Source: Saccharopolyspora gloriosae | GTDB lineage: Bacteria > Actinomycetota > Actinomycetes > Mycobacteriales > Pseudonocardiaceae | Reading direction: 5' to 3' | DNA: 64,000 nt | Assembly: GCF_022828475.1 (NCBI RefSeq) | Contig: NZ_CP059557.1 | Location: 2,589,470 to 2,653,469 of the forward strand | Shown here: positions 26,564-38,602 of the stretch, in pieces | Layout: every line of letters begins with the position of its first letter | How positions within the stretch are numbered: position 1 is the first letter of the stretch | The notes under the pieces: generated by a model | What the model saw: the letters and a program-made list of their open reading frames with translations, nothing else | What the model was told of the DNA's origin: nothing | Databases searched by the model: none | Made by a program: the position numbers and the translations under genes

Positions 26564-26633
26564 TAAGCGATGCGCGAAGTGCGTCTGAGATCTTCCGGGT
26601 TGAGCGTTCGTTCTTGCAGTGGTGCCCGACGAG

Positions 26634-27911
26634 GAACCATCCCCGCGTGCGCGGGGCCGACGGACAACTGGTGTTCCTGCACCGCGACGGCGACGAACCA
26701 TCCCCGCGTGCGCGGGGCCGACATCAGCTACTTCGCGTTCAGGTACTGCCACTGGGAACCATCCCCGCGTGCGCGGGGCCGACCATTCACCGAAGGCGGC
26801 ACCCCATCCAACGCCGGAACCATCCCCGCGTGCGCGGGGCCGACTCGCCGTTCGCGACCGCGAGCACGGCGTCGGTGGAACCATCCCCGCGTGCGCGGGG
26901 CCGACGCCAACCGGACTCGTGCGGCCGATGGCACGGGGGAACCATCCCCGCGTGCGCGGGGCCGACGATGACCTGTCTAGCAATGGCGGACGCGTCTACG
27001 AACCATCCCGCGTGCGCGGGGCCGACCCCCTGTTCCCCCTTTACCTGGATCAGCTGGGCGAACCATCCCCGCGTGCGCGGGGCCGACGGCGGATGGCTGT
27101 CGGACAAGTCCCAAGCCCCGGAACCATCCCCGCGTGCGCGGGGCCGACGGCACGCAGGAACGTCGAGCCCTTGGGAGTCGCGAACCATCCCCGCGTGCGC
27201 GGGGCCGACGGCCACGAGGCCACGTAAACCGCTCGTTGCCAAGAACCATCCCCGCGTGCGCGGGGCCGACTTCGCGCTGGGCACGTTCCTACGGTCGAGG
27301 GCAGAACCATCCCCGCGTGCGCGGGGCCGACTCCGCCCCACTCGATCGCGCGGCGCTGTATGCCGAACCATCCCCACGTGCGCGGGGCCGACGACCACAA
27401 CCCGCACGGAGACACGCACCGGGCGGAACCATCCCCGCGTGCGCGGGGCCGACGCCCGTCACCGTGTCCACGCGCGCCGCGGCGAGGAACCATCCCCGCG
27501 TGCGCGGGGCCGACCGTGGGTCAGCCACGCCGAGGCCACTGCCGCGCGAACCATCCCCGCGTGCGCGGGGCCGACGGCGGCATCCAGGCATGGCCCGGGG
27601 CCGACTGATCGAGACCGAGGCGCCGCTCGATCTGCAACGAACCATCCCCGCGTGCGCGGGGCCGACCGAGCCGGATCCGGGCTTCCGCCGCCAGGACCCG
27701 GAACCATCCCCGCGTGCGCGGGGCCGACCTCCGGTGCGCTCGGCGAGGGCGCCGAGCAGGCGAACCATCCCCGCGTGCGCGGGGCCGACTGGCCGAACGC
27801 GAACGGCCCTGCGGCGCGTGGAGAACCATCCCCGCGTGCGCGGGGCCGACCGGCGGCCGTCCGTCGAGGGCGGTGTGTCCGCGGAACCATCCCCGCGTGC
27901 GCGGGGCCGAC
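26634..27911 (-). CRISPR. Type I-E-like CRISPR array, 21 repeats plus one scar
   Basis: 28-bp repeats begin every 61 bases from 26634 (repeat core CCCCGCGTGCGCGGGGCCGAC, preceded by GAACCAT). Spacers are mostly 33 nt. Exceptions: the repeat at 27000 lacks one C (27 bp); the one at 27365 has G to A; one spacer is 34 nt; and at 27576-27605 only the last 10 bases of a repeat survive after a 20-nt spacer stub. The reverse complement reads GTCGGCCCCGCGCACGCGGG then GATGGTTC, the usual actinobacterial I-E orientation, so crRNA is made leftward with the leader at 27912 onward and the newest spacer at 27851-27883. No cas gene is in the window. Confidence 0.97.
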
Positions 27912-28197
27912 ACTTCTTGACCTGGTGTTTTATCTCGGGCAGGGCTGGTTTTCATTCACTCCGGATCGCGGGCAGGCGTGTAGCTTGGTGGTCGGGTTCA
28001 TGTGCTCTCGGTTCGCAGTGCGGGGCGGCGTAGGTGGGTGTGGGCGTTGTTGTGAAGATCACCTACCTGGGTGACCAGGAAATCCTCCCACTGCGCGACC
28101 CCATTTCGCGGGCGCGGACGAAATCCTCCCAAAATCCTCCCAAAAATCGACACAGGCGGTTTCGGGAGATCCACTACATGATCGACACCGCAACATC

Positions 28198-29726: not shown

Positions 29727-30422
29727 CTAGCCATCGGCCGCGGCGTTGCCGGAAGACGTGTGGTTTGTGATGAGCGCCGACGCGCCTTGTTCGGGTTTGG
29801 TGACCGTGTCTCGGTCGATCTGTTCTGTGAGATACCGATGCATCAACTCGCGAGCATCGAGTCGGAATAGGTTGAGTCGACGGGTGTGCCGCAGGAGGAG
29901 CAATCCGGACGCGTGTGCAAACGCCTCCGCGGTCAGGCGTGTGGCGGCCTCGGCGTCAAACAGCTCGGCTGCGGCATTGCGGGCTGGCTCCAGGGTTGCG
30001 AGCAGTGCGGCGTTGAGCTCGCGATTGGTTTCCTCGTCGGAGAGCCCGTGCGGTGCCATGCCGCCGGAGAACAGGTAGAACCCCATGTCCAGGTCGCGGG
30101 GGTTCTCGTCGTAGAAGTCGAAGAAGGTCAGCCCGGCAGCGACGTAGCGGGACGCTGCGGTGGCGGCGTGCGAGGCGGCGGCTTCGGTTGCGTTCTTCAG
30201 CCGCCTGAGCGACTCGTTCAGCGCTGCCGCGTAGATGTGCTCCTTGCTCGGGAAGTAGCTGTAGATCGCTCCCGGGGTGTAGCCGGCCTCTTTGGCGATC
30301 GCCCGCATGCTGGCCTCGCGCAGCCCGTCACGGGCGAAGACCCGCAGCGCCCCCTCGAGTATCAGCGCTCGCTTGGTCTCGTTCACCGCGTCGAGCCGTT
30401 CTGCGCGCGCACCCTCAGGCAT
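29727..30422 (-). CDS. TetR-family transcriptional regulator
   Basis: 231 residues. The DNA-binding domain is TKRALILEGALRVFARDGLREASMRAIA followed by KEAGYTPGAIYSYFPSKEHIYAAAL. The C-terminal domain is helical with hydrophobic patches (AGLTFFDFYDENPRDLDMGFYLFSGG). The ATG at 30422 has AAGGAC upstream. It is divergent from the acyl-CoA dehydrogenase/SelD operon, with two GAAC-n3-GTTC palindromes in the 98-base gap. It likely represses the operon and itself, with an acyl-CoA or product ligand possible. Confidence 0.93.
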   Translation of the reverse strand: MPEGARAERLDAVNETKRALILEGALRVFARDGLREASMRAIAKEAGYTPGAIYSYFPSKEHIYAAALNESLRRLKNATEAAASHAATAASRYVAAGLTFFDFYDENPRDLDMGFYLFSGGMAPHGLSDEETNRELNAALLATLEPARNAAAELFDAEAATRLTAEAFAHASGLLLLRHTRRLNLFRLDARELMHRYLTEQIDRDTVTKPEQGASALITNHTSSGNAAADG

Positions 30423-30464
30423 GTCCTTGGTCCTTCCCTTCGTGTTGACGGTGACGCTACACTC

Positions 30465-30495
30465 TGAACAGTGTTCAATAGGCCGAACGTTGTTC
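30465..30495. promoter_or_regulatory. Paired TetR-type operators before the SelD operon
   Basis: TGAACAGTGTTCA (30465-30477) and GAACGTTGTTC (30485-30495) are imperfect copies with GAAC/GTTC arms and 3-base centres, 19 bases apart centre to centre. A TTGACG at 30445-30450 could be a -35 element for the rightward promoter. The sites lie 26 bases or more before the dehydrogenase start. Confidence 0.68.
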
Positions 30496-30520
30496 AGACA
30501 TCGAGAGGGAGAGCTAGCTC

Positions 30521-31765
30521 ATGACTGCCGTCGCCGCCATTGGTGCCAGCGAGCGAGTCGCCGACTACACGGACCGCTTCCAGGCCTTCCTCGACCAAGA
30601 GGTTGCCCCGATCGAGGAGGAGCTGACTCAACAGAATGTCGGCACTGCCAGCCAGCCGCAGTTCGACGAGCTGGGACGGATGCATCCGGCGGTGTGGGAG
30701 GCGCGACGGCAGGTGCAGCGCCGCGCGGGTGCCCTTGACCTCTACGCACCACACAACTCGGTCTCTGCGGGTGGCAGGGGTTTCAGTCGGGTGGAGATGC
30801 ATCACGTTGAGGAGTTCGTCTACCGTCGGTCCGGTCTTGGGCTCGGGCTGGCCGCGTTGGCTTGGACGGAGGGGCCGAACCCGGCGATCGAACGCTGCTC
30901 GCCGACCATGAGGGAGCAGTATCTGCAGCCGCTGATCGCGGGGGAGATCACGGCGGCGTTCTGCAATACCGAGCCCAGTGTCGGCTCCGATGTCCTGGCG
31001 ATGTCCACCCACGCAACCCGCGACGGCCATGACTGGATCATCAACGGGAAAAAGGCGTGGATCACTAACTCGCACTTTGCCGATGTCTTGCAGGTCGTGG
31101 CTGTCACTGGACCCGGCGCCCGGACCCGCTCGCTGTCGATGTTCCTGATTGACGCCAACGCACCCGGGGTCACCCGCGGGCGTGATCTGCCCACGATGAT
31201 GGCCGACGGTTTGACCGGCACCCTGGAGTTCAGCGACGTGCGGGTTCCGGCCGAGAACGTCGTCGGCGAGATCGGCGACGGTTTCGCGCTGGCAATGTCG
31301 TGGATCAACTGGCGCCGACTCTGCCGTGGCGGCATGTGTGCCGGCTGGGGTGCCTGGCTGCTCGAGCGAGCTCTTGACTACGCCCAGGATCGGACGTCGG
31401 GTGGCGAGCCGATCGCGGCACAGCAGGCGGTGCAGCACATGTTGGCGAACATGGACACCGACATCTACCAGGCCCGCTCGACGTCTCTGGTGGCGCAGGC
31501 CGAGCTTGATGAACTGGGGCCATTCGCAATTCCGATGCACTCCGATGCTCCCCGGCTGATCAGCCTGGTCAAGGTGATCAACGACGAGGCGTTCTTCCGC
31601 GTCGCAGACACCGCGGTGCAGGTGCGCGGTGCGATGGGGCTTATGCAGGACTCGCCGGAGGAGAAGCTGTTCCGGGTCGCACGAAACCTCCGCATCCCGG
31701 CAGGAACATCTGAGATCCAGCGCAACGGGATTGCGCGAGGCCTGTTGAAGAGGCGAGCCGCATGA
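30521..31765 (+). CDS. Acyl-CoA dehydrogenase-family flavoprotein
   Basis: 414 residues. AFCNTEPSVGSDVLAMSTHATRDGHDWIINGKKAWITN is the FAD/substrate segment (given here as the range about 150-187), followed by the middle beta domain and the C-terminal helical bundle with RVADTAVQVRGAMGLMQDSP and IPAGTSEIQRNGIARGLL. The glutamate that serves as base in the medium-chain enzymes (before GTS) is alanine here, so the base must lie elsewhere or the reaction differs. The ATG at 30521 follows GAGAGGGAG. It is the first gene of the operon and overlaps selD (ATGA). The substrate is unknown. Confidence 0.88.
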   Translation: MTAVAAIGASERVADYTDRFQAFLDQEVAPIEEELTQQNVGTASQPQFDELGRMHPAVWEARRQVQRRAGALDLYAPHNSVSAGGRGFSRVEMHHVEEFVYRRSGLGLGLAALAWTEGPNPAIERCSPTMREQYLQPLIAGEITAAFCNTEPSVGSDVLAMSTHATRDGHDWIINGKKAWITNSHFADVLQVVAVTGPGARTRSLSMFLIDANAPGVTRGRDLPTMMADGLTGTLEFSDVRVPAENVVGEIGDGFALAMSWINWRRLCRGGMCAGWGAWLLERALDYAQDRTSGGEPIAAQQAVQHMLANMDTDIYQARSTSLVAQAELDELGPFAIPMHSDAPRLISLVKVINDEAFFRVADTAVQVRGAMGLMQDSPEEKLFRVARNLRIPAGTSEIQRNGIARGLLKRRAA

Positions 31766-32877
31766 CGACCCTGACGACCCCGCTCACGCAGTACTCACCG
31801 GGCGGAGGGTGTGCTTGCAAGATGCCGCAGAGCCTGCTCAACGACGTGTTGGCGTCGTTGAAGGCGGGCGATGGCGCCCCTGCGGAAAGTGGCCGCACCG
31901 CTCGTGCTGGTGCGGCTCTGAGGGTCGGGTTGTCTCCCGCCGATGATGCGGCTGTTCTTGACATTCCTGGCCTTGAAGGCCGTTCCCTGGTGATGACCAC
32001 CGATTTCCTGACTCCGATGGTGGATGATCCCTACGCCTGGGGACGCATTGCGGCCACCAACGCCCTGTCGGACGTCTACGCGATGGGTGGGCGCCCGCTG
32101 CTGGCGCTGAACCTGCTCGCTTGGCCGGAGAACCTGGACCGTGCCCTGCTCGCGGAGGTTTTGCGGGGAGGCGCGAACGCGGTCGCCGATGCCGGCGCGG
32201 TGCTTGCCGGCGGGCACAGCATCGTTGACCCAGCCCCCAAATACGGTCTGGCCGTCGTGGGCGAAGTCGACGAGAGCTCTATCCTGCGCAAGGGCGGAGG
32301 TCGTGCGGGTGACCTGCTCGTGTTGACGAAGCGGCTCGGCGCCGGGGTCATCGGCACAGCGGTGAAACGGGGGCAGGCGCCGGGCTCGGCCGTCGGTGAG
32401 GCGGTCGCCATGATGAGCCGTTCCAACGCCTCCGCGGCCGGAGTGGCTACTACCGCAGGGCTTCGCGGTGGGACCGATGTCACGGGATACGGCCTCATCG
32501 GCCACCTGCACGAGATGGCGTCGGCGGCCGGTCTCGAAGCCCGAATCCGGCCGGAGGCCGTTCCGCTACTTCCCTCGGTTGCTGAGCTCGTGCGGCAGGG
32601 TTGCGCCCCTGATGGCAGTCGCCGCACTCTCACTGATGCGCTCGCCGCGGGCTGGTTCGCCCCCTCCACCGCCGACCAGACCACACAGCTGCTGTTGGCA
32701 GATGCCCAAACATCCGGCGGCCTGCTGCTTTGCGTCCCCCCGGCCATTGCGAGTCCGACGATCGCGGCCTTGCACGAGCGGGGTGATGCGGATGCAGCCG
32801 TGGTCGGCGAACTCGTATCCGGACGTCCGGGGCACGTCGTGATCGAGACACCGCTAGCGGCCAAGGGAGAGGAGTAG
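31762..32877 (+). CDS. selD: Selenide, water dikinase (selenophosphate synthetase)
   Basis: 371 residues. It makes selenophosphate from selenide and ATP. The N-terminal active site GGGCACKMPQSLL keeps the catalytic cysteine and lysine (Cys17/Lys20 of the E. coli enzyme). The ATP/metal aspartates are in SPADDAAVLDI, TTDFLTPMVDDPYAWGRIAA and GGTDVTGYGLIGHLHEMA. NALSDVYAMGG and GGHSIVDPAPKYGLAVVG are further signatures. It overlaps the dehydrogenase stop (ATGA), with two bases to the next gene. No selA, selB, tRNA-Sec or selU lies in the window, so the selenophosphate may feed a small-molecule pathway instead of selenoproteins; that is inference. Confidence 0.95.
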   Translation: MTTLTTPLTQYSPGGGCACKMPQSLLNDVLASLKAGDGAPAESGRTARAGAALRVGLSPADDAAVLDIPGLEGRSLVMTTDFLTPMVDDPYAWGRIAATNALSDVYAMGGRPLLALNLLAWPENLDRALLAEVLRGGANAVADAGAVLAGGHSIVDPAPKYGLAVVGEVDESSILRKGGGRAGDLLVLTKRLGAGVIGTAVKRGQAPGSAVGEAVAMMSRSNASAAGVATTAGLRGGTDVTGYGLIGHLHEMASAAGLEARIRPEAVPLLPSVAELVRQGCAPDGSRRTLTDALAAGWFAPSTADQTTQLLLADAQTSGGLLLCVPPAIASPTIAALHERGDADAAVVGELVSGRPGHVVIETPLAAKGEE

Positions 32878-32879
32878 GG

Positions 32880-33431
32880 ATGGATCGTTTGAGTTGTGTG
32901 ACCGGCCGGTACCAACCGGTGCATGAACAGCACTTGGAACTGTTCGAGATCGCGCTGCGTGATGCCGACCACCTCATCATTGCGATCACTAATCCTGATC
33001 CCGTTGCCCGGCAGGAGGAATCGACCTCGGCACACCGGCATCTGGCCGAAGCCAACCCCTTCACCTACTTCGAACGCGCGCGGCTCCTGTACACGGCACT
33101 GGCCGACCGGGGCCGGGCGGAGCAGACGACCATTGTGCCGTTCGATCTCACCCGGCCGGAGTGCTGGCCGCACTATGTCCCGCTGCGCGCCCGGCAGGTG
33201 GTGCGCGCCTACAGCGACTGGGAACGCCACAAGGCGGGACTGCTGGCGGATGCGGGCTATCGGCTGACGATGCTCGACGGTGACCCCGCCACCAAGGTCT
33301 CCGCCACCGACATCCGCGCACGCCTGGCGGGCAAGACGGCGACGTGGACGGATATGGTGCCCGCTTCCATCGCACCGATCCTGACTGAACTACTGAAAGA
33401 GCGGGCAGCAGCACGCATCGGAGGTCGGTGA
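32880..33431 (+). CDS. NadM-like nucleotidyltransferase (cytidylyltransferase superfamily)
   Basis: 183 residues. SCVTGRYQPVHEQHLELFEI is the nucleotide-binding start, with the HxGH motif as HEQH (glycine replaced by glutamine). The second superfamily motif appears as KVSATDIRARLAG in place of ISSTxIR. LIIAITNPDPVAR and NPFTYFERARLLYTAL match NMN adenylyltransferase/NadM relatives. It starts two bases after selD and overlaps the next gene (TGATG). NadM itself would adenylylate NMN, but in this operon a different phospho-acceptor, for example one derived from selenophosphate, is worth considering. PhpF of phosphinothricin biosynthesis is a relative of this kind, as I recall. Confidence 0.82.
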   Translation: MDRLSCVTGRYQPVHEQHLELFEIALRDADHLIIAITNPDPVARQEESTSAHRHLAEANPFTYFERARLLYTALADRGRAEQTTIVPFDLTRPECWPHYVPLRARQVVRAYSDWERHKAGLLADAGYRLTMLDGDPATKVSATDIRARLAGKTATWTDMVPASIAPILTELLKERAAARIGGR

Positions 33432-34792
33432 TGGCGCCACCTGGATACGGCGAAACCCAGCCTCGGTTGGACGACGACCGGCTGCCGATCGTGCTGGTCA
33501 TATTCGACGGGCTTGGCGATCGCCCCATCCCGGAACTCGGAGGGCACACTCCTGCCGAGGCAGCCCACACCCCGCACCTCGATGCCCTGGCCCACGACGG
33601 CGCTTCCGGATGGCACCTGCCGTTCGGATGGGGGCGCGCACCGGCTTCGGAACTGGCCCACTGGGCGATGTTTGGCTACGCCACGGTGCCCTTCCCCGGG
33701 CGCGCCGTGCTGGAAGCACTCGGCGCCGGACTCGACATCGCCCATGACTGTGCGGTCACCCACGCGGCGCTGCGCACCTCCCGCCGCGACGGCAACCGCC
33801 TGTGGATTACCGGACGAGCCAGTGTCGACGATGACGCCGACATCGTGGCCCTGTTGAGCGGCCTCGGGCCGGTGCTCGCCGAGCATGGGATGACCCTGCA
33901 ACGCCACGGCAAGACCGGCGAAGCGCTGCTGACCGCCCCCGCTCACGGGTGTGCGCAGGTGACTGACTCGGATCCGCTGTTCGAGAACTTCCACCCCTGG
34001 ATGCAGCCGGTCCCGACCAGCGCGGAGGGATCGGCCTTCGCCGCAGCGCTCACCGCGGCCCTACAGGCAGCACACCGTTACCTGCGAGCCAGCGATATCA
34101 ACGCCACGCGGGAACGCCGCGGGCTGCCTGCGCTGGACGTGCTCACGACGAAGTGGTCCGGCCGCTACGGCGAAATTCCTTCATTCGTCGAGCAGGTCGG
34201 CGTTGCCGGTGCCGCGGTCACCAGCACGCGTCTGTACCGCGGGATCGCCACAGCCCTGGGCATGGCCTCGGTACACCTGCCCCCGGTCGACGACCCGGCT
34301 CGCGACATCGCAACACGACTCGAGGCCGCAGACGCACTCATCGCCTCCGGCGCCCGCTTCGTGCACGTCCACACCAAGGCCACGGACGAGGCCGGTCACA
34401 CCAAACAACCCCACGCCAAACGCGACGTCCTCGCGGCACTCGACCGAGGCCTGACCGGCCTGTCATCCCTCGCCGACAGGGCGATCGTCGCGGTGACGGG
34501 TGATCACGCCACACCCTCCACCCACGGGGTGATGCACACAGCCGACCCGACTCCCTTGCTCGTTGCCGGCCCGACGGTAAGACCCGACACCGTGACCGAA
34601 TGGGGAGAACTTCCTGCGCGTGACGGGTGGTGGGGCAACGTCCGCGCCGAGGAACTGCTGCCCCTGCTGTTGGGGCAGGCTAACCGGCCAGTCTTCCTCG
34701 GCCATCGCATCACCACCCACCCGGTAATCGCACTCAGCGATACACCCCTTCCCATGCCCGTCACCGAAGACGGCATGACCGTCCGACGCTGA
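33431..34792 (+). CDS. Alkaline-phosphatase-superfamily enzyme resembling archaeal-type phosphoglycerate mutase (ApgM/PhpG-like)
   Basis: 453 residues from the ATG at 33431 (GGAGG six bases upstream, TGATG overlap). Metal-binding groups of the superfamily are present: LPIVLVIFDGLGDRPIPEL, ASELAHWAMFGY with the nucleophile serine, FVHVHTKATDEAGHTKQPHA, and VAVTGDHATPSTHGVMHTAD. GRAVLEALGAGLDI matches the ApgM insertion. A housekeeping phosphoglycerate mutase would not be expected in this operon; ApgM-like proteins next to NadM-like transferases occur in phosphonate clusters (PhpF-PhpG), where the pair activates and transfers a phosphonate. A similar two-step use of selenophosphate is a hypothesis. 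Confidence 0.82.
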   Translation: MAPPGYGETQPRLDDDRLPIVLVIFDGLGDRPIPELGGHTPAEAAHTPHLDALAHDGASGWHLPFGWGRAPASELAHWAMFGYATVPFPGRAVLEALGAGLDIAHDCAVTHAALRTSRRDGNRLWITGRASVDDDADIVALLSGLGPVLAEHGMTLQRHGKTGEALLTAPAHGCAQVTDSDPLFENFHPWMQPVPTSAEGSAFAAALTAALQAAHRYLRASDINATRERRGLPALDVLTTKWSGRYGEIPSFVEQVGVAGAAVTSTRLYRGIATALGMASVHLPPVDDPARDIATRLEAADALIASGARFVHVHTKATDEAGHTKQPHAKRDVLAALDRGLTGLSSLADRAIVAVTGDHATPSTHGVMHTADPTPLLVAGPTVRPDTVTEWGELPARDGWWGNVRAEELLPLLLGQANRPVFLGHRITTHPVIALSDTPLPMPVTEDGMTVRR

Positions 34793-34922
34793 CCTCGGGG
34801 GCAACCCGCTCCAGGTCCCGCCGCTCCGCCACGTCGGCAACCCTCGAGGTGCCGGAGCGGCCCCTCACCATTCTTTTCAGACCGGAAGCCCGTGACAAAG
34901 CAGTCACGGGGATCGGAGCAGC
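34793..34922 (+). other. Structured gap inside the SelD operon
   Basis: The 130 bases before the acyl-CoA synthetase gene contain CCGCTCCG paired with CGGAGCGG around an inner GGCA/TGCC stem (about 34826-34863). ACCTCG at about 34794 offers an alternative partner for CGAGGT at about 34846. T-rich TTCTTTT follows. It could be an attenuator, a processing site or a leaky terminator; no known riboswitch was recognised. Confidence 0.4.
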
Positions 34923-36800
34923 ATGATGGGATATCAGGAGACCTTCCGCGCCAGCATCGAGGAGCCCGAGACGTTCTGGCGCGAGGCCGCCACGGCAATT
35001 GACTGGCACCGCGCACCGGAACGCGTCCTGGACGGCACCGCCGCACCCTTCTACCGCTGGTACCCGGACGGACAGCTCAACGCCTGCCACAACGCTCTAG
35101 ACCGCCACGTACAAGCTGGCCATGGCGACCGCGCCGCGCTGATCTACGACAGCCCCGTCACCGGGACCAAGAAGATCTACACCTACAGCCAGATGCTCGA
35201 GGAAGTGGCGCGGTTCGCCGGCGCACTGACCAAGATCGGCGTCGGCCACGGAGACCGGGTCGTCATCTACATGCCCATGGTCCCCGAAGCCGCGATCGCG
35301 ATGCTTGCCTGCGCCCGCATCGGCGCGGTCCACTCGGTCGTCTTTGGCGGATTCGCCCCGAACGAGCTGGCGATCAGGATCGACGACGCTGCCCCCAAAG
35401 CCGTCGTCACAGCATCGTGCGGTATCGAAGGCACACGGATCATCGAATACAAACCGCTGCTCGAGCGCGCATTCGAACTGGCCGATCACAGCCCAGATCA
35501 CTGCATCGTTCTGCAACGCCCCCAGGCGGTCGCCGAGCTAGGCGACCGCGATCTCGACTGGTCCGAGATGATCGCCACTGCCAAACCTGTTGCCTGTGTT
35601 CCGGTGGTTAGTACCGATCCGCTCTACATCCTCTACACCTCGGGTACGACGGGCAAACCCAAGGGCGTCGTCCGTGACACTGGCGGCTACGCCGTCGCCC
35701 TGGCCTGGTCGATGCGCGCCATCTACGACGTCGGCCCTGGCGAGACGATGTTCAGCGCCTCCGATGTCGGTTGGGTCGTCGGGCACTCCTACATCGTCTA
35801 CGGGCCATTGCTTGCTGGCGCCACCACGGTGTTCTTCGAAGGCAAACCTGTCGGGACACCGGACCCGGGCCAGTTCTGGCGAGTCATTGCCGAGAACCAA
35901 GTGAAGGCCCTGTTCACCGCGCCCACCTCGCTGCGAGCGATCAAAAAGGAAGACTCGGAAGGTTCCTTCCTCGACGACTACGACCTCTCCAGCTTGAGCA
36001 CCGTGTTCCTAGCCGGCGAGCGCCTGGACCCTGAAACGCTCCGTTGGACTCAAGACCGCCTCGGCATTCCGGTCATCGACCACTGGTGGCAAACCGAGAC
36101 CGGCTGGCCGGTCGCCGCGAACCTCGTGGGACGGGAGCCCCTGCCCGTCAAGCCTGGATCCGCGAGCGTTGCGGTCCCCGGTTGGAACATCACGGTCGTC
36201 GACGCCGTCGGCGGTCCTGTACCGCGCGGCACCGACGGCACGATCCTGTTGAAACTGCCGCTGCCTCCGGGTGCGCTGACCACGCTCTGGAACGACGATG
36301 AACGCTACATCTCCTCGTACTTGTCCGAGTACCCGGGCTACTACGCTACCGGCGACGGCGGACACATCGACGATGACGGCTACGTGTTCATCATGGGCCG
36401 TACCGACGACGTCATCAATGTGGCCGGCCACCGGCTCTCGACCGGCACCATGGAGGAGGCCCTCGCTGCGCACCCGGCAGTCGCAGAGTGCGCCGTGATC
36501 GGCGTGGCAGATCCCCTCAAGGGGCAACTTCCTCGAGGATTCGTTGTGCTGAAAGCCGGTGACCATCACGACGAGGCCACCGTCGTTGCCGACCTCATCG
36601 CGCTGGTCCGCAACCGAATCGGAGCAGTGGCAGCGCTCAAGGATATCTCGATCGTGCCAGCCCTACCCAAAACTCGCTCCGGCAAGATCTTGCGGAAAAC
36701 CATGAGGGGAATCGCCGATGGCGCTGACGAATCGGCGCCTTCGACCATCGAGGACATAGCCGTGCTCGATGCGCTCCGCCCCGTTCTCCGACGCGACTGA
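34923..36800 (+). CDS. Propionyl/acetyl-CoA synthetase (PrpE-type, AMP-forming)
   Basis: 625 residues. The AMP-binding motif YILYTSGTTGKPKGVVRDTGG is preceded by VFGGFAPNELAIRI. The core motif WWQTETGWPVAANL and the hinge GYYATGDGGHIDDDGYVFIMGRTDD follow. The catalytic lysine lies in KTRSGKILRKTMR. Length and the propionate-type start ETFWREAATAIDWH point to PrpE over Acs. The start is ATG at 34923 (GGAG four bases before); a second ATG follows directly. It is 130 bases after the ApgM-like gene and is probably part of the same unit, supplying an acyl-CoA that the first-gene dehydrogenase could oxidise. Confidence 0.9.
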   Translation: MMGYQETFRASIEEPETFWREAATAIDWHRAPERVLDGTAAPFYRWYPDGQLNACHNALDRHVQAGHGDRAALIYDSPVTGTKKIYTYSQMLEEVARFAGALTKIGVGHGDRVVIYMPMVPEAAIAMLACARIGAVHSVVFGGFAPNELAIRIDDAAPKAVVTASCGIEGTRIIEYKPLLERAFELADHSPDHCIVLQRPQAVAELGDRDLDWSEMIATAKPVACVPVVSTDPLYILYTSGTTGKPKGVVRDTGGYAVALAWSMRAIYDVGPGETMFSASDVGWVVGHSYIVYGPLLAGATTVFFEGKPVGTPDPGQFWRVIAENQVKALFTAPTSLRAIKKEDSEGSFLDDYDLSSLSTVFLAGERLDPETLRWTQDRLGIPVIDHWWQTETGWPVAANLVGREPLPVKPGSASVAVPGWNITVVDAVGGPVPRGTDGTILLKLPLPPGALTTLWNDDERYISSYLSEYPGYYATGDGGHIDDDGYVFIMGRTDDVINVAGHRLSTGTMEEALAAHPAVAECAVIGVADPLKGQLPRGFVVLKAGDHHDEATVVADLIALVRNRIGAVAALKDISIVPALPKTRSGKILRKTMRGIADGADESAPSTIEDIAVLDALRPVLRRD

Positions 36801-37798: not shown

Positions 37799-37975
37799 GT
37801 GGTGATGCTGTGGGTTGAGGAGTGGCGCGTGGAGCGTGTGAGTGTGGGTGCGCCCGGTTGGACTAGTCGGTGATTTCCCTTCTACTCGGGAAGTTGTCGC
37901 GTCCCGAGTCTCTTTACCGGCTCGGTTTCCGGCTTCTGCGCCGAGGAGCGATGCTTGTCTTGCCCTATCCGCCGC

Positions 37976-38189
37976 GTTCGAGCCCCGCATTCGCGGGGCC
38001 GACTCCGCACCGGCGGAGCCGGTGCTCCACCGGCGTAGGAGAGAACACCCCCACATGCGCGGAGCCGACCACGGTGGCCTTGTTCAGGTCCACCGGCACC
38101 TGGAAACCTCCGTATGCGCGGAGCCGACGAGGTCGACCGCCTGCTGCAACAGCATCTGCGGGGAACACCCCCGCGTGCGCGGGGCCGAC
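37976..38189 (-). CRISPR. Decayed second CRISPR array, about four repeats
   Basis: Repeat-like units end at 38003, 38069, 38128 and 38189. Only the one next to the leader copy (38162-38189) has the full CCCCGCGTGCGCGGGGCCGAC core; it begins GGAACAC where array 1 has GAACCAT. The others have substitutions (ACATGCGCGGAGCC, GTATGCGCGGAGCC) and irregular spacing (66, 59, 61). Decay increases away from the leader, as expected for an array no longer acquiring spacers. Confidence 0.78.

Positions 38190-38602
<413 letters not shown>

Follow-up and report, generated by a model that had tools for sequence, protein, structure and literature searches.

In the chromosome of Saccharopolyspora gloriosae, a gene for selenide, water dikinase (SelD) lies in an operon with genes for a flavoprotein of the acyl-CoA dehydrogenase (ACAD) fold, a NadM-like nucleotidyltransferase (NT) and an ApgM/PhpG-like metalloenzyme (AP). 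We analyzed this operon within a stretch of 64,000 nucleotides (G000:C1:2589470-2653469), hereafter the window, and found that ACAD, NT and AP form a real conserved cassette. The gene order is real and beyond chance, since the same core was found again in other genera, in archaea and on plasmids. Our preferred reading, which we hold with about even confidence, is that the cassette belongs to a dedicated pathway that depends on SelD and produces or alters a small molecule, most probably with selenium. The original prediction, made from the letters of the window, had proposed that NT and AP activate and transfer selenophosphate or a compound derived from it, with acyl-CoA enzymes building the carbon part; overall this was partly supported, and nothing that we found overturned it outright. 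No paper on the cassette was found among openly licensed PMC papers, and as far as these were searched the cassette, tied to SelD as it is, is undescribed.

Conservation of the cassette and its enzymes

NT was searched for in three overlapping samples, drawn from the window's family (297 genomes, 29 matches, ACAD and AP accompanying 28), its class (394 genomes, seven matches besides the window's own genome) and its phylum (396 genomes, four matches besides the same genome), and also in plasmids, where 16 records matched. The plasmid records comprised five from Rhodococcus (three opened; H2 and H3 known from search rows only), six from Halobaculum (all opened), one from Halorussus and four with a dikinase of the PPDK type. 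The 46 cassette loci that were aligned consist of the window, 27 loci from the family, seven from the class, four from the phylum, one from Rhodococcus and six from Halobaculum; L025, which duplicates L067, was set aside, and the opened Rhodococcus loci L027 and L028 stand outside the 46. These loci lie in the window's family, in four further actinobacterial families among those sampled, on a megaplasmid of Rhodococcus and on six plasmids of Halobaculum. A weak NT match (G089, L092) was dropped because ACAD and AP did not adjoin it, as were ApgM matches on Macrococcus plasmids, which adjoin a DASS transporter and have no annotated NT, ACAD or SelD in the region shown.

SelD was encoded in the cluster at 13 of the 46 loci and a divergent SelD-like protein at six (19/46 in total). 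Carriers of SelD in the cassette are Saccharopolyspora, two genomes of the genus g5, megaplasmids of Rhodococcus, genome G573 and six small-genome actinobacteria; the SelD-like protein is that of the six Halobaculum plasmids. At 23 family loci there was no selD in the fetched stretch, and each of these genomes carried selD elsewhere (23/23). The pairing of SelD with NadM-like and ApgM/PhpG-like enzymes, on which the original prediction was built, thus recurs in other genomes; of the neighbor conservation that it presupposed, the joint occurrence of ACAD, NT and AP stood, and that of SelD or a SelD-like protein did so at the 19 loci only.

Judged from the alignment, NT and AP have both kept their catalytic motifs. 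NT retained HxxH together with R, NP, W and K residues at all 46 loci. AP retained its Asp and His residues (46/46) and a Ser (42 loci) or Thr (4 loci), which we take to be the metal ligands and the nucleophile, respectively. Because the window NT scored under the cut-offs of both NMN adenylyltransferase models (PRK01153, 58.5 against 127; TIGR01527, 49 against 181.2), it is by these models not an ordinary NMN adenylyltransferase, and a housekeeping role of that kind was disfavored. The window AP scored under the cut-offs for ApgM (TIGR00306, 235.9 against 320) and for PhpG (NF038358, 169.7 against 545).

ACAD departs from the familiar members of its fold. Catalytic base positions were taken from the relevant part of PMC12369846. 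The position of the Glu base was set by alignment with the YEGT of solved ACADs, and at this ACADM (MCAD) position Glu was found at none of the 46 loci (Ala at 36, Gly at 10). The position tentatively mapped, through a segment of isovaleryl-CoA dehydrogenase, to the base of that enzyme was occupied by Arg (36 loci) or Thr (10 loci). An N, an R and the motif GMC-x-G were invariant (46/46), and R.GMC.G was missing from all nine other ACAD open reading frames (ORFs) nearby, some of which are partial; the helix with the conserved Arg and Cys is presumably the site of the isovaleryl-CoA dehydrogenase base. A parallel exists with 3-sulfinopropionyl-CoA desulfinase, whose function is known to us from its NCBIfam name, and other atypical ACADs, in which the fold serves something other than ordinary dehydrogenation; the window ACAD differs in scoring 144.1 bits on the desulfinase model (NF042439), under the cut-off of 600. 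A lone fold of the window ACAD had a mean pLDDT of 36.7 and was not used. Since the usual catalytic Glu is missing at 46/46 loci, a part for the acyl-CoA enzymes in building the carbon moiety is doubtful.

Cassette SelD and the selenocysteine machinery

The window SelD exceeded the cut-offs of two SelD models (TIGR00476, see the table, and PRK00943, 308.4 against 299). It retained C17, K20 and the Asp residues already pointed out in the original prediction, which were invariant in all ten aligned SelDs and presumably have catalytic roles. The host genome has a second selD at 3446759, with 47% identity to the first, which adjoins selA (TIGR00474, E = 3.7e-122), a selB-like ORF recognized by eye and a tRNA-Sec (Rfam, 72 bits against a gathering score of 47). 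Given this separate selenocysteine (Sec) island, the window selD is an extra copy, and as the SelD beside selA and tRNA-Sec is the other one, the cluster selD does not belong to the Sec trait by position. The predicted absence of Sec partners thus held for the window and failed for the genome, whose Sec machinery has its own selD. Among six same-genus genomes searched, the window selD was present in three and another selD in all six.

A tree was built from 33 SelDs, made up of nine rows of the window-type cluster, six of the small-genome clusters and 18 from outside the cassette; the last were called Sec-type because of that position, and not by proximity to selA. The nine window-type SelDs (Saccharopolyspora, two g5 genomes, three Rhodococcus plasmids and G573) formed a single clade with support of 100/100, the six small-genome SelDs formed a second, divergent group, and 16 of the 18 non-cluster SelDs grouped separately. 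With the clade of its own and the lack of SelA in seven cassette genomes described below, the window SelD was disfavored as a paralog serving Sec.

In the seven class-level cassette genomes (93-98% complete), selD lies in or adjoins the cassette. SelA was not found in any of them (0/7), nor SelU (TIGR03167) in 15 cassette genomes or YqeB (TIGR03309) in eight, each search having a positive E. coli control. TIGR04348, which we take to be the SenB family, gave no match over its cut-off in 13 genomes, in a search without any positive control over cut-off. Because SelA, SelU, YqeB and over-cut-off TIGR04348 were not found, SelD looks orphan in the seven genomes and the cassette appears to be its only visible user within these searches, with SelB, tRNA-Sec, YqeC and SenA outside the scope of the test. 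In-cis selD was found in 7/7 of these SelA-less genomes and in 5/28 family cassette genomes (p = 1.2e-4), and selD was present in 28/28 family cassette genomes against 175/269 others (Fisher's exact test, p = 1.2e-5), neither value being corrected for kinship.

These genomes bear on a published problem. The first follow-up of SelD genes lacking a known use, in 2008, tied two of them to selenium-dependent molybdenum hydroxylases (PMC2276186, in its pertinent passages), and a survey of 2016 still counted at least 26 organisms with SelD unexplained. As set out in the main text of that survey (PMC5029168), orphan SelD is SelD without a known trait, actinobacteria included, and the neighbors named are an isochorismatase-like gene (PF00857), an ABC ATPase and a cysteine desulfurase. 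The isochorismatase also occurs in the small-genome clusters and beside that of G573, which fits the candidate partner named there; ACAD, NT and AP differ in not being among the neighbors named in that text, its supplementary figure aside. The cassette is a concrete candidate for the orphan-SelD problem, and a strong one for a selenium trait still missing from the known set.

The haloarchaeal SelD-like proteins, seven with that of Halorussus, kept C17, K20, D62, D104 and D239 in 7/7 cases and an Asn in 6/7. Six of the seven outscored all shuffled and reversed controls; the Halorussus protein did not. On the Halorussus salilacus plasmid (L035, 4659-6546), the SelD-like protein and NT are the only parts of the cassette in the region shown, followed by a DHHA2-domain protein. 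As a separate observation, six g59 genomes (G225, G242, G095, G136, G167 and G063) had selD on the same contig as the cassette at a distance of 28-56 kb, and in the first five of these selA was on a different contig from selD and the cassette.

The operon and its surroundings

All six ORFs of the region were open at their predicted coordinates. ACAD overlaps SelD, and NT overlaps AP, by 4 nt each, and SelD and NT are 2 nt apart; the CoA synthetase gene starts 130 nt after AP on the same strand.

Table 1. Features of the operon region, in window coordinates.
Feature	Coordinates	Strand	Evidence or detail
TetR-family regulator, divergent	29727..30422	-	PF00440, 60.4 bits
Two palindromic operator-like sites	30464..30496	.	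GAACAGTGTTC at 30466, GAACGTTGTTC at 30485
ACAD-fold flavoprotein lacking the usual catalytic Glu, invariant motif N..[RK]..R.GMC.G	30521..31765	+	PF00441/PF02770
SelD (selenide, water dikinase), extra copy	31762..32877	+	TIGR00476, 334.8 against cut-off 125
NadM-like nucleotidyltransferase (NT), HxxH retained	32880..33431	+	PF01467, 31.8 against cut-off 21
ApgM/PhpG-like metalloenzyme (AP), metal ligands and Ser nucleophile retained	33428..34792	+	PF01676, 110; PF10143, 66.9
PrpE-like acyl-CoA synthetase, probably non-core	34923..36800	+	PRK10524, 764.7 against cut-off 955

The divergent TetR gene was present as predicted, and so were its paired putative operators, as palindromes of the form GAAC(n3)GTTC lying 19 nt apart in the TetR-ACAD intergenic region. 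The pair was kept in two same-genus loci (L067 and L068), a single copy was seen in L070, and none was found in the two Rhodococcus loci inspected (L026 and L027). A TetR ortholog is also divergent in L067, L068 and L070; in the Rhodococcus loci the TetR gene lies upstream in the same direction as the cassette. The operon region of the window is flanked by a CRISPR-like array (26629-27913, 21 copies, period of about 61 nt) and three degenerate copies (37971-38191), and a 300-nt block occurs on both sides of the operon (27883-28182 and 38161-38460) with 96% identity.

The CoA synthetase, originally taken for a pathway member, was disfavored as a core gene and is probably not one, because it had no match in the 6.6-8.1 kb fetched on each side of two same-genus loci (L067 and L068) or in Rhodococcus L026 over 30.5 kb. 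AMP-binding matches were seen near four other loci (L117, 443 bits; L029, L089 and L091, 77-110 bits), and in L117, an f70 locus, the gene adjoins NT on the opposite strand. When the ORFs of 30 loci were clustered, no non-core family occurred in more than 12 loci, the families being only partly identified; MFS, aldo-keto reductase and FAD-monooxygenase genes adjoin some family loci. The six small-genome loci (L103-L108) shared the order isochorismatase-NT-AP-ACAD-MmgE/PrpD-SelD followed by a methyltransferase (6/6), and L105-L108 also had CoA-transferase III and GT20 glycosyltransferase genes. In G573 (L102) the order was AP-NT-SelD-ACAD, with isochorismatase, HMGL-like and GT20 genes adjoining. 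The extra genes of the small-genome and G573 clusters may reveal the product class.

Two further observations concern plasmid records and relatives of NT. On Rhodococcus rhodochrous pGD02.2.1 (L028, 10543-13237), an IS3-family transposase gene splits the AP gene. At four loci (L030, 9986-14349; L031, 2436-5737; L032, 5801-9137; L033, 7995-10505), NT relatives adjoin a dikinase of the PPDK/PEP-pyruvate-binding type, and in Treponema, where the dikinase is PPDK-like, genes for a viperin-family radical SAM protein and a cysteine desulfurase are also present. These loci are a possible sister system in which another dikinase replaces SelD.

A possible selenium pathway and its alternatives

Two known systems offer parallels. 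In the sen cluster for selenoneine, a SelD homolog is clustered with partners that place selenium in a small molecule (PMC9814287). The cassette resembles it in joining SelD to partner enzymes, and differs in that the partners are other enzymes. The presumed SenB family had no over-cut-off match (0/13 genomes, in the uncontrolled search above). PhpF and PhpG are paired in phosphinothricin biosynthesis. According to the pertinent part of PMC6697681, PF01467 covers the PhpF cytidylyltransferase; the likeness is thus of a PF01467 cytidylyltransferase and an ApgM-like transferase (the PhpG role being that of its NCBIfam name) which activate and pass on a phosphorus acid. The cassette differs in its SelD and in an AP far under the PhpG cut-off.

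We infer selenium as the substrate, together with the nucleotide, the acceptor and the role of ACAD. By analogy with PhpF and PhpG, SelD, NT and AP would make, activate and transfer a selenophosphoryl group, nucleotide activation of selenophosphate included. SelD would turn selenide and ATP into selenophosphate, a reaction established for its family; with NT, selenophosphate would attack the alpha-phosphate of a nucleoside triphosphate, to yield pyrophosphate and a nucleotide ending in a P-Se group; AP, with its Ser/Thr and two-metal site, may then move the selenophosphoryl group from the nucleotide to an alcohol. ACAD, with a conserved Arg and Cys and no usual Glu, might carry out non-classical chemistry on the acceptor or the selenium group. 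In genomes with a Sec-type selD the cassette would use that copy in trans, and in those without it would carry its own, a pattern visible in part in the counts above. A wider version, tentative and in our view unlikely, would make this a cross-domain selenium trait in which selenophosphate becomes a Se-bearing nucleoside diphosphate, whose selenophosphoryl group passes to an alcohol, and in which an ACAD-fold enzyme bearing a Cys in its active site takes part. The products would be natural phosphoroselenoate esters or C-Se compounds arising by rearrangement, and many orphan SelDs of actinobacteria would be accounted for.

Several observations weigh against a selenium pathway. No selD was present in the cluster at 27 of the 46 aligned loci, four of which are f70 loci where the search for selD covered the fetched stretches beside the cassette. 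SelA accompanies SelD in 27 of the 28 family cassette genomes, so that trans selD in the family is already explained by Sec, and 18 of these 28 genomes come from one genus. In genome G273 (83% complete) SelA was not found, and selD is present in trans but not in the cluster, contrary to the in-cis pattern. Glycosyltransferases gave sub-cut-off matches to TIGR04348 in 13/13 genomes, and two long-branch non-cluster SelDs (L008 and L011) were placed, with weak support, beside the cluster clade. The haloarchaeal proteins are weakly linked to SelD, with a best profile E of 9e-5 (Z = 1000) and 81.5% in hhalign over 34 columns; in 7/7 of them D61 is missing and Glu stands in place of D81, and they may be sulfur enzymes.

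The loci without selD would suit a cassette that acts on an ordinary phosphorus compound, such as a phosphate ester or phosphonate, with SelD optional in some lineages through a variant product or hitch-hiking. The resemblance of NT and AP to the phosphonate pair, with PF01467 including PhpF (PMC6697681, same part) and AP reaching 169.7 on the PhpG model, points the same way. This we consider unlikely, as SelD joins the cassette in several lineages with differing gene orders, lies in the cluster in all seven class-level SelA-less genomes and is present in the genome for 23/23 selD-free family clusters; nor did the clustering of 30 loci, in its partly identified families, reveal a further gene family in more than 12. 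Alternatively, the cluster SelD or SelD-like protein could phosphorylate sulfide, and NT activate thiophosphate. The highly divergent haloarchaeal members, which lack C19, fit this, as do the PPDK-like dikinase and cysteine desulfurase beside the Treponema NT relative and a Crenarchaeota SelD-like family proposed, in the pertinent passage of PMC4210487, to make thiophosphate. It is nevertheless improbable, given that the actinobacterial cluster SelDs scored on the model, those of the window and L106, exceed the SelD cut-off and that the three-gene form coexists with trans SelD in 23/23 family genomes. That the extra selD merely boosts selenophosphate for selenoproteins, beside unrelated neighbors, would agree with a host that has Sec machinery and a second selD; we regard it as highly improbable in view of the separate clade of cluster SelDs, the seven genomes with a cluster selD in which SelA was not found, and neighbor genes conserved to single residues.

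For part of the orphan-SelD class, the cassette provides named, clonable enzymes, found in Rhodococcus, Saccharopolyspora and Halobaculum relatives. Activation of selenophosphate as a nucleotide anhydride, if it occurs, would be a new route for selenium into biomolecules and would lengthen the short list of natural selenometabolites.

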